Below are positions 51,337-53,167 of a DNA stretch of 64,000 nt, one piece after another. Source of the stretch: an uncultured Schlesneria sp. (lineage in GTDB: Bacteria > Planctomycetota > Planctomycetia > Planctomycetales > Planctomycetaceae); assembly GCA_903904835.1 (NCBI GenBank), contig CAIVEI010000101.1, positions 1 to 64,000 of the forward strand, in the 5' to 3' direction. A program made the translations under genes and the position numbers. A model generated the notes under the pieces. The model had not been told where the DNA came from and ran no database searches. It worked only from the letters and a program-made list of their open reading frames with translations. Within the stretch, counting starts at the first letter, position 1, and each line of letters begins with the position of its first letter.

Positions 51337-52245
51337 TCAAACGTGCAGGACATCCGCCATTTCGCCTGCGTGGTAACTCGACCGAACGAACGGGCCGCTG
51401 GCGACCATGCTGAATCCGAGACGTCGCATCTGCTCCCCAATCTCGTCGAACTCTTCCGGTGGAACGTAACGTTCGACGGGTAAGTGTTCGGCGGTCGGCT
51501 GCAGGTATTGGCCCAGCGTCAGCATGTCGACACCGACAGCCCGAAGATCGGAACAGACTTCGAGTAACTCATCTCGTGTCTCGCCCAAACCGAGCATTAA
51601 GCCGCTTTTCGTGGGCATTTCAGGCGCCTCGTCCTTGATCTGTTGCAGCAGATCAAGTGTGCGGCGGTAATCAGCGTTTCGACGAACCCTGTCGTATAAC
51701 CGAGGCACCGTCTCGGTATTGTGATTGAAGACATCGGGCCGAGACTGGATCACGCGAGAAATGGCGTCGCGATTACCGCGAAAGTCCGGCGTCAAAACTT
51801 CGACCTTCGCACCAGTCCGCTCGCGAACGGCAAGAACGCATTCATAGAAATGGCCAGCTCCCCCATCCGGAAGATCGTCCCGCGTTACCGACGTAATCAC
51901 GACGTACTTCAAGCCCAACCGTTCTGCGGCTTCTGCAACCCGGCCCGGTTCATCAGCCAGGACCGTTTCCGTCTTCCCTTTCAAAACTGAACAGAAGCCA
52001 CAAGGCCGAGTGCAGACATTACCCAGGATCATGAACGTCGCTGTCTTCTGTGACCAGCACTCCGTTTGATTCGGACACTTGGCACTCTCACAAACCGTTT
52101 CCAGCTTGAGGTCCGCAATGACGTTGGTGGTAAACTGCATTCCCGCCTGAGGCAAAGGCCGCTTCAACCACTTAGGAAGCCGCTGCCGTGTCGGCGCGGA
52201 TTCCTGACCATCATTAGGAAGTATACTCAAAAGTTCCGCTGCCAT
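51337..52245 (-). CDS. lipA: Lipoyl synthase
   Basis: A 302-residue radical-SAM enzyme that inserts two sulfurs into octanoyl groups on carrier domains. Both clusters are visible: CESAKCPNQTEC (C-x4-C-x5-C, the auxiliary cluster) and CTRPCGFCSV (the radical-SAM C-x3-C-x2-C). FMILGNVCT, LKYVVITSVTRDDLPDGG, SGLMLGLGE, LTLGQYLQPT and FVRSSYHAGE follow the family. Length is normal. lipB-like gene is next on the same strand with a 175-bp gap, so the two may be one transcript. Confidence 0.96.
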   Translation of the reverse strand: MAAELLSILPNDGQESAPTRQRLPKWLKRPLPQAGMQFTTNVIADLKLETVCESAKCPNQTECWSQKTATFMILGNVCTRPCGFCSVLKGKTETVLADEPGRVAEAAERLGLKYVVITSVTRDDLPDGGAGHFYECVLAVRERTGAKVEVLTPDFRGNRDAISRVIQSRPDVFNHNTETVPRLYDRVRRNADYRRTLDLLQQIKDEAPEMPTKSGLMLGLGETRDELLEVCSDLRAVGVDMLTLGQYLQPTAEHLPVERYVPPEEFDEIGEQMRRLGFSMVASGPFVRSSYHAGEMADVLHV

Positions 52246-52420: not shown

Positions 52421-53167
52421 TCAGGCATACACGTATACCTTTCGAGTAGCGCGGTGCAATAGTGGATGTCCGGTGAAAACGTGGTAGCCGTCATAGCCTA
52501 GAGCACTGGCGACGTTTCTGATTAATGCTTCTCGAACGGTCGACATGGCCGTCGGGCGAGTTCGCTGTGAAGCGAGTGAAGTCACTTTGACGTCGGAGCG
52601 AGTCCATCGGACGAGATCGAGTGCTTCTTGAGGCAGCGAAACGTTGACGTAGAACCCGCCATACGACACCCAGTCTCGAACTGAGGCACCGATAAACGCG
52701 AATTGGCCGCAACGGCAGATCGCGCCGGGTACTGCGGATGAGCGCTCGGCGGCGACTTTTAGATCGGCGGCTGATGCAACAAGGACATTTTCCAGGTTGG
52801 TTCGATAGTCCAACAACCCTAGCCCCAACCTCTCCAGTGGAACAATGACGTAAACGGCGAGTTGGCCCGGAACGTGCACGAACGTTCCACCGCCCCGATT
52901 CAGCCAGCGGACATCCATCTTTCGTGCGGTTAATTCTTCCCATTCAACAAGCACATCGGCGAAACTTCCTTCGCGTCCGATGGTGACAGAAGGGGGGTGT
53001 TCGCAAACCAGGATTGCCCCGTGGGAATCTGATCTTGAGGCAATATCGCTACGCAGACGTTCCTGCAGTTCTTTCGACGACTCAAGATCGACCGTTCCCA
53101 GCAGAAAGACGTCGAGCGAAGACGATGCCTGCGAATGGTTCCTGCGATCAGTCAAAGGGACGTTCAT
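52421..53167 (-). CDS. LipB-like octanoyltransferase relative lacking the usual dyad
   Basis: A 248-residue protein of the LipB/LplA fold. ILVCEHPPSVTIGREG, RWLNRGGGTFVHVPGQLAVY (family RGG-x-T-x-H-x-PGQ) and VSYGGFYVNVSL match LipB. However, the catalytic Lys of the K-I-x-x-[IL]-G motif is Gln155 here (GQFAFIG), and the PCG Cys after NxxL reads WTRSDVKVTS at 188-197, so neither of the two residues used by E. coli LipB (Lys135 and Cys169) is present. It may act as an octanoyl/lipoate-binding or LplA-like protein, or a relocated dyad exists. It lies upstream of lipA, which favours a lipoyl role. Confidence 0.8.
   Translation of the reverse strand: MNVPLTDRRNHSQASSSLDVFLLGTVDLESSKELQERLRSDIASRSDSHGAILVCEHPPSVTIGREGSFADVLVEWEELTARKMDVRWLNRGGGTFVHVPGQLAVYVIVPLERLGLGLLDYRTNLENVLVASAADLKVAAERSSAVPGAICRCGQFAFIGASVRDWVSYGGFYVNVSLPQEALDLVRWTRSDVKVTSLASQRTRPTAMSTVREALIRNVASALGYDGYHVFTGHPLLHRATRKVYVYA

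Follow-up and report, generated by a model that had tools for sequence, protein, structure and literature searches.

A LipB-like protein without the catalytic Lys/Cys dyad, usually encoded beside lipA, is retained across a planctomycete class whose genomes also carry a LipM-like gene

Lipoate assembly serves central metabolism, and in the ligase-type members of the LipB/LplA fold the acceptor lysine attacks lipoyl-AMP directly. For the octanoyltransferase LipB of E. coli, passages of PMC9307952 describe K135 and C169 as the acid/base catalysts, with the Cys carrying the octanoyl group, and treat the mutant in which both are replaced by alanine as catalytically inactive; section 11 of that paper names Lys133 of LplA, which contacts AMP, as the equivalent of LipB K135, and matches LplA Trp37, a lipoyl contact, with Val41 in the E. 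coli and Leu47 in the M. tuberculosis LipB. In LipB and LipM the catalytic Cys is located on different loops of the same fold, according to parts of PMC7253636. Parts of PMC10332631 call the presence of LipB and LipM in one genome very rare and describe LipM/LipA bacteria without LipL, for which a broad LipM or an unknown amidotransferase is named as a possibility. A planctomycete study of a dyad-less LipB-like family was not found among the literature titles and abstracts listed, nor was literature linking lipoyl, octanoyltransferase and pseudoenzyme, and the main text of a study of essential genes in Planctopirus limnophila (PMC10632474) contains none of six lipoate terms.

The window studied here, meaning the whole stretch of 64,000 nucleotides that was analysed, comes from an uncultured Schlesneria sp. 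whose genome is 99.97% complete, and it carries a LipB-like gene followed after 175 bases by lipA. The features of this locus, in window positions, are:

52421 to 53167, minus strand: LipB-like gene in which the Lys/Cys dyad is absent (248 aa, ATG start)
53003 to 53005, minus strand: codon of Cys55, a family-specific Cys aligned with Val41 of E. coli LipB
52703 to 52705, minus strand: Gln155 codon, matching the catalytic Lys135 of E. coli LipB (from phmmer and MAFFT alignments)
52598 to 52609, minus strand: codons of Arg187-Trp188-Thr189-Arg190, replacing the Pro-Cys-Gly loop (from alignments)
51337 to 52245, minus strand: lipA, lipoyl synthase (TIGR00510, 374.8 bits), the next gene downstream of the LipB-like gene

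The LipB-like ORF is an intact frame with zero internal stops, and because three homologs from the same genus (91-92% identity) are open over equal length, a frameshift, which the initial annotation of this DNA had named as evidence that would overturn its reading, is rejected. Its nearest named relatives are MAGs titled Schlesneria, again at 91-92% identity. The protein matches PF21948 (Pfam LplA-B_cat) with 77.1 bits (E 2.3e-21) and TIGR00214 (lipB) with 58.9 bits, less than the curated cut-off of 83.55, and gave no match to NF053589 (LipL) at E 1 or better. A sequence search against solved structures yielded three relatives, each of them a LipB (2qht and 2qhs of T. thermophilus, 1w66 of M. 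tuberculosis), and an AlphaFold2 model of the window protein, computed with 58 named-contig homologs (mean pLDDT 90.2), has LipB 2qhs as its best match (Foldseek E 1.7e-19; Z 29.5, rmsd 1.9 over 209 residues), with Z 27.4 for 1w66 and lower values (Z 17.7-22.6) for the ligase and bovine lipoyltransferase chains. The window protein is, as modelled, a protein of LipB fold. Fold, length and lipA neighbour liken it to LipB (TIGR00214; E. coli, 1w66, 2qhs), as do the RGG loop, His78, Gln82, Gly140 and Asn155, all of which it keeps, whereas it departs from LipB in lacking the catalytic Lys, the PCG Cys and Thr76, in the replacement of His150, in the Cys at the Val41 position, in the sub-cut-off TIGR00214 score and in belonging to a genome that also has a LipM-like gene. 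One homolog (L057, in G020:C1) has a LipB-like frame of 357 aa whose match falls into two pieces with an apparent insertion between them.

To place these differences, 54 LipB-like proteins of the window's class, 15 of them from the window's genus, were set against 28 distinct canonical LipBs; the gene of G028, cut by a contig end, is absent from the 54-protein alignment, and the canonical set consists of E. coli LipB and 27 proteins from other classes of the phylum, hand-picked among high-scoring TIGR00214 matches (30 alignment rows, two genes having been entered twice). Both dyad residues together occur in 0/54 LipB-like proteins compared with 28/28 canonical ones. The catalytic Lys is present in one LipB-like protein (that of G026) versus all 28 canonical LipBs, and in the window protein Gln occupies this site in the phmmer alignments and also in the MAFFT alignment, where it stands against K135 of E. 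coli LipB. For the loop Cys the LipB-like count is 0/54 by MAFFT column and 6/54 by a register anchored on Thr-Ser, against 28/28 in the canonical set. The register of this loop in the window protein is uncertain by one residue, with Trp188 at the Cys site if the conserved Thr-Ser that follows the loop serves as anchor, as in the phmmer alignments, and Thr189 there by the MAFFT columns; since residues 175-197 contain zero Cys, no register rescues a Cys there. Thr76 is likewise missing from the LipB-like proteins (0/54 versus 28/28), and His150 is found in 26/54 versus 28/28; the window protein has Phe96 and Gly170 at these two positions, respectively.

The initial annotation, which had described a LipB relative next to lipA with neither residue of the dyad, is borne out in these points, but its use of RGGGTFVHVPGQ as a canonical LipB fold motif is not, because the Thr76 of that motif is lacking in all 54 LipB-like proteins. 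It had also raised an alignment with the Lys and Cys elsewhere in the active site as a way to overturn its reading. The window protein has no such Lys or Cys nearby, whereas the wider family is less uniform, with six members having the Cys and one the Lys, none having both. The six proteins with a Cys in the anchored register come from four members of family f3 (G038, G043, G047, G056) and two of f5 (G049, G057). A Cys near the PCG site without the Lys is seen at L054, L049, L044 and L050 (f3) and at L052 and L048 (f5), and it is possible, going by their sequences, that such proteins represent an intermediate stage.

Counts over the 54 LipB-like and 28 canonical proteins indicate that the pocket residues are mostly retained while the reactive ones are gone. 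In E. coli numbering, R71 is kept in 54 of the 54 LipB-like proteins, G72, G73 and Q82 in 53 each, G140 and N155 in 52 each and H78 in 51; the RGG loop with His78 and Gln82 corresponds to R91, G92, G93, H98 and Q102 of the window protein. Cys55, which directly precedes a conserved Glu-His, is present in 49/54 LipB-like proteins versus 1/28 distinct canonical LipBs, the five exceptions having Tyr (three), Gly or Ala. This count covers 54 sequences from searches not biased for Cys55, and the 80 named loci were left out of it, as one of the two patterns that find them contains Cys55. On the alignment given in part in PMC9307952, Cys55 would face the pocket, and its conservation together with the equivalence of Val41 and Trp37 suggests that it is a nucleophile that has changed place or else a pocket residue adapted to another ligand.

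LipB-like genes were found in 55 of the 59 sampled genomes of the window's class, 15 of the 59 belonging to its genus, and identity to the window protein spans 31-92%, with shared invariant residues across this range. The initial annotation had made a distinct lipoylation variant conditional on conservation in planctomycetes, and the missing dyad, the lipA neighbour and the presence in 55/59 class genomes do point to a distinct lipoylation-associated variant. In the four class genomes that lack the gene, lipA is present and the 1.5 kb on either side of it contain no LipB-like neighbour. Among the matches listed for a 199-genome sample of the phylum, a profile of the class family scored at least 276 bits in 11 class members and at most 187.1 bits in every other match, and the class member G045 had no match to it. 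TIGR00214 exceeds its cut-off in 141/199 of these genomes, one of them a class member; with 91.7 bits for the LipB-like gene of G032, above 83.55, this cut-off fails to separate LipB-like from canonical proteins cleanly.

A tree that took 34 of the 53 LipB-like rows besides the query, G026 not being placed, sets the LipB-like rows apart by a modestly supported branch (87/30), recovered in 90% of bootstrap trees, and the canonical LipBs by another (95/91), with LipM-like and LplA-like proteins outside both. LipM-like sequences make up a separate clade (100/98); the window protein is placed with the LipBs. On this tree Lys and Thr76 changed once each, for the rows placed, and the loop Cys once by MAFFT column or four times by the anchored register, so the Lys was probably lost first. 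Given the six homologs with Cys and these four changes, loss of the chemistry would not have been a single step, and it may persist partly in some lineages. For the state of Cys55, at least five changes are needed.

The dN/dS of the LipB-like gene in four same-genus pairs is 0.068-0.104, so the gene is under purifying selection and is not decaying; lipA gave 0.020-0.032 (four pairs) and the LipM-like gene 0.131-0.149 (two pairs), and the ratios of the pair with G003 are rough because dS exceeds 2 for each gene. The distance to lipA could be determined in 76 of the 80 named loci, four with less than 200 bases of downstream DNA having been dropped. In 62 of these 76 loci lipA lies directly downstream of the LipB-like gene, and half of these pairs (31/62, with the start extrapolated) overlap or abut; in one locus it follows 1.25 kb downstream, and in 13, two of them titled Schlesneria, it is absent from the 1.7-4 kb downstream. 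In G028, lipA has no LipB-like neighbour and the LipB-like gene is on a different contig. The commonest other neighbouring frame, excluding lipA and shadow frames, recurs in 18 of the 80 loci. Eight of the 13 lipA-less loci have a methylenetetrahydrofolate-reductase-like ORF upstream of the LipB-like gene (L217:2799-3854, the only one checked with Pfam, and L208, L210, L212, L213, L218, L219 and L220), for which a tie to one-carbon metabolism is possible. Two further arrangements were observed. In G032:C1, at about 2632160-2641833, lipA, the LipB-like gene, gcvH and the LipM-like gene lie within about 10 kb. At L250:517-2193 (G112:C21), in the same phylum, a 559-aa frame containing LplA-B_cat, LIAS_N and Radical_SAM fuses a canonical LipB, with Lys and PCG, to LipA.

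The search for a second lipB or lplA that had been proposed for the window's genome yielded two more PF21948 genes, LipM-like on C172 and LplA-like on C97. The C172 gene has the cysteine in LCF and the lysine in KVLGSAQ, two motifs (the second in general form KVxGSAQ) that we take to mark LipM, and the C97 gene encodes 277 aa with the Lys present. The latter (L001, G000:C97:1-2771) is located between dihydrolipoamide-dehydrogenase-like and 2Fe-2S ferredoxin-like genes at a contig end. A LipM-like gene occurs in at least 57 of the 59 class genomes, those of G002, G005, G011, G012 and G028 being counted by profile range only; in G010 none was found among the matches listed, and in G051 the type is ambiguous. 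In the 52 LipM-like genes that were read, the Cys is present in 52 and the Lys in 50, with one Arg and one gene cut by a contig end. In four of ten genomes checked (G032, G045, G053, G054) the LipM-like gene shares its strand with gcvH and is no more than about 5.1 kb away from it. The window protein belongs to the same superfamily as LipM, which illustrates that the Cys can sit elsewhere on the fold; unlike it, the LipM-like genes of the same genomes keep the LCF Cys and the KVLGSAQ Lys and form a separate clade. Since a separate LipM-like gene with both catalytic residues is present in these genomes, octanoyl transfer could proceed without the LipB-like protein, and the earlier statement that such a protein must use other catalytic residues is not forced.

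A short LplA-like gene is present in at least 38/59 class genomes and has the Lys in 38/38 read, a count that includes the gene of G051 (L067), of uncertain type. This L067 (G051:C160) is a 408-aa frame with PF21948 at 182-371 and about 26% identity to the LplA-like query only. Among the matches listed for the 59 class genomes, with the third matches of G024, G036, G048 and G051 not or only partly covered, 35 genomes have both the LipB-like and the LplA-like gene, 20 only the former, three only the latter (G045, G053, G054) and one neither (G025); a complementary presence, which would back a shared amidotransferase role, was not seen as a pattern in these genomes. The window protein shares its fold with LplA and LIPT1, the ligase-type transferases, and unlike LplA it has neither an equivalent of Lys133 (Gln155 instead) nor the C-terminal domain. 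An LplA-like ligase role, one of the options in the initial annotation, is accordingly not supported, as the ligase Lys is missing and 248 aa are too short to accommodate the accessory domain.

Outside the class, LipB is the single PF21948 match in 12 of 19 picked genomes; the other seven, one of them with only a sub-cut-off piece, have more matches, in two cases in the LipM-like range (G123, G210), and a genome can thus hold a further PF21948 gene alongside canonical LipB. Within the window's class, a LipM-like gene together with a dyad-less LipB is the rule, a coexistence consistent with LipM having taken over octanoyl transfer. LipL (NF053589) was not found in any of 22 genomes searched, namely the window's genome and 21 without a listed LplA-like gene, in searches whose control matched in 3/14 genomes, Bacillus subtilis included. 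In these 22 genomes a broad LipM or another amidotransferase may serve the E2 domains, the LipB-like protein being a candidate for the latter; as stated above, the window protein has no NF053589 match either.

We tentatively favour, with a probability that falls a little short of even, the reading that the LipB-like protein, once an octanoyltransferase, persists as a LipA partner that does not catalyse but binds an acyl chain or a lipoyl domain. A LipB-fold lineage spanning the class would have given up the Cys/Lys chemistry of octanoyl transfer, and a LipM-type transferase, in some genomes inside a glycine-cleavage cluster, would attach the octanoyl group. The LipB-like protein would be retained because the old pocket still binds the acyl chain or the octanoyl- or lipoyl-bearing domain and, usually encoded just upstream of lipA, it may assist LipA by presenting the substrate or by sensing acyl groups. 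We infer the acyl binding by the pocket, the contact with LipA, the transfer by the LipM-like protein and the non-catalytic nature of the LipB-like protein from the comparisons above. In its favour count the lost dyad beside retained pocket residues, the modelled LipB fold, the spread over 55/59 genomes, the low dN/dS, the lipA synteny, the LipM-like genes with their Cys and Lys (some close to gcvH), the 12 of 19 genomes outside the class in which LipB is the single PF21948 match, and the LipB-LipA fusion at L250. Several observations speak against parts of this reading. The new pocket Cys in 49/54 proteins seems to exceed what a pure scaffold would need, the loop Cys kept in 6/54 homologs in one register may reflect remaining catalysis, and by analogy with LipB and LipM (PMC7253636, in part) a catalytic Cys could have moved between loops again. 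Against a LipA partner, 13 of 76 loci have no downstream lipA, and the two genes are apart in G028. The genomes outside the class with canonical LipB and further PF21948 matches also count against this reading.

Ranked second after the non-catalytic LipA partner, both being judged from sequence comparison, is an active acyltransferase in which Cys55, on a pocket strand, took over as nucleophile from the PCG-loop Cys, likeliest as a LipL-type amidotransferase; we consider this possible, though on balance unlikely. Such an enzyme would most likely move octanoyl or lipoyl from LipM-loaded GcvH to E2 domains. It would account for the contrast in Cys55 between the LipB-like and the canonical proteins in an unbiased search, for the position of this residue opposite the lipoyl-contacting LplA Trp37 (through Val41 and Leu47, in the part of PMC9307952 cited above) and for the lack of LipL matches in the 22 genomes searched out of the 59-genome class sample, and it has parallels in the differing Cys loops of LipB and LipM (parts of PMC7253636) and in the amidotransferase proposed for LipL-less LipM/LipA bacteria (parts of PMC10332631); a Cys in the loop of six homologs would favour a catalytic role in general. 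It has to contend with the five proteins of 54 without Cys at position 55 and the at least five changes on the tree, with the loss of the Lys for no evident replacement base (His150 in only 26/54), with the four class genomes that do without a LipB-like gene, which count against catalysis of any kind, and with G025 (91% complete), where a LipM-like gene and lipA occur with no LipB-like or LplA-like gene among the matches listed. The fully specified form, in which a class-wide LipB-fold amidotransferase with Cys55 in place of Cys169/Lys135 substitutes for LipL beside LipA, with GcvH loaded by LipM, is more doubtful still. Improbable, in our view, is a transferase that holds donor and acceptor and lets the acceptor lysine attack directly, with no covalent intermediate: the retention of R71, H78, Q82 and N155 would suit it, as would the mostly hydrophobic T76 site, which resembles Val77 of LplA in passages of PMC9307952, but the absent Lys is also an AMP contact in LplA (Lys133, same passages), and the Lys-bearing LplA-like gene of at least 38/59 genomes is a better candidate for that chemistry.

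The two remaining explanations would remove the need for any function or any variant. A relic drifting since the LipM takeover would fit the lost dyad and the four of 59 class genomes in which the gene is unmatched and lipA has no LipB-like neighbour within 1.5 kb; it is disfavoured, and we give it very little weight, since dN/dS of 0.07-0.10 is below the value that the LipM-like gene has within this genus, and the gene is kept in 55/59 genomes with shared invariant residues at 31-92% identity. A standard LipB in which misalignment or sequencing error has hidden the Lys and Cys could draw on the one-residue uncertainty of the register, on the six homologs with Cys and on G026 with Lys. For the window protein we regard this explanation as ruled out, because residues 175-197 are free of Cys and independent genomes of the same genus agree, and both alignments give Gln at the Lys site.

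Together, these results bear on how lipoate assembly is annotated in this group. A LipB-like gene beside lipA prompts the annotation of LipB/LipA synthesis, and in the window's class this is probably wrong, because the LipB-like protein is without the known chemistry and the LipM-like gene has it. The LipB-like protein is a candidate for lipoate transfer from GcvH to E2, or for a partner of LipA, and the family adds a case in which the active site of a fold has been emptied or moved while the gene is still under selection.
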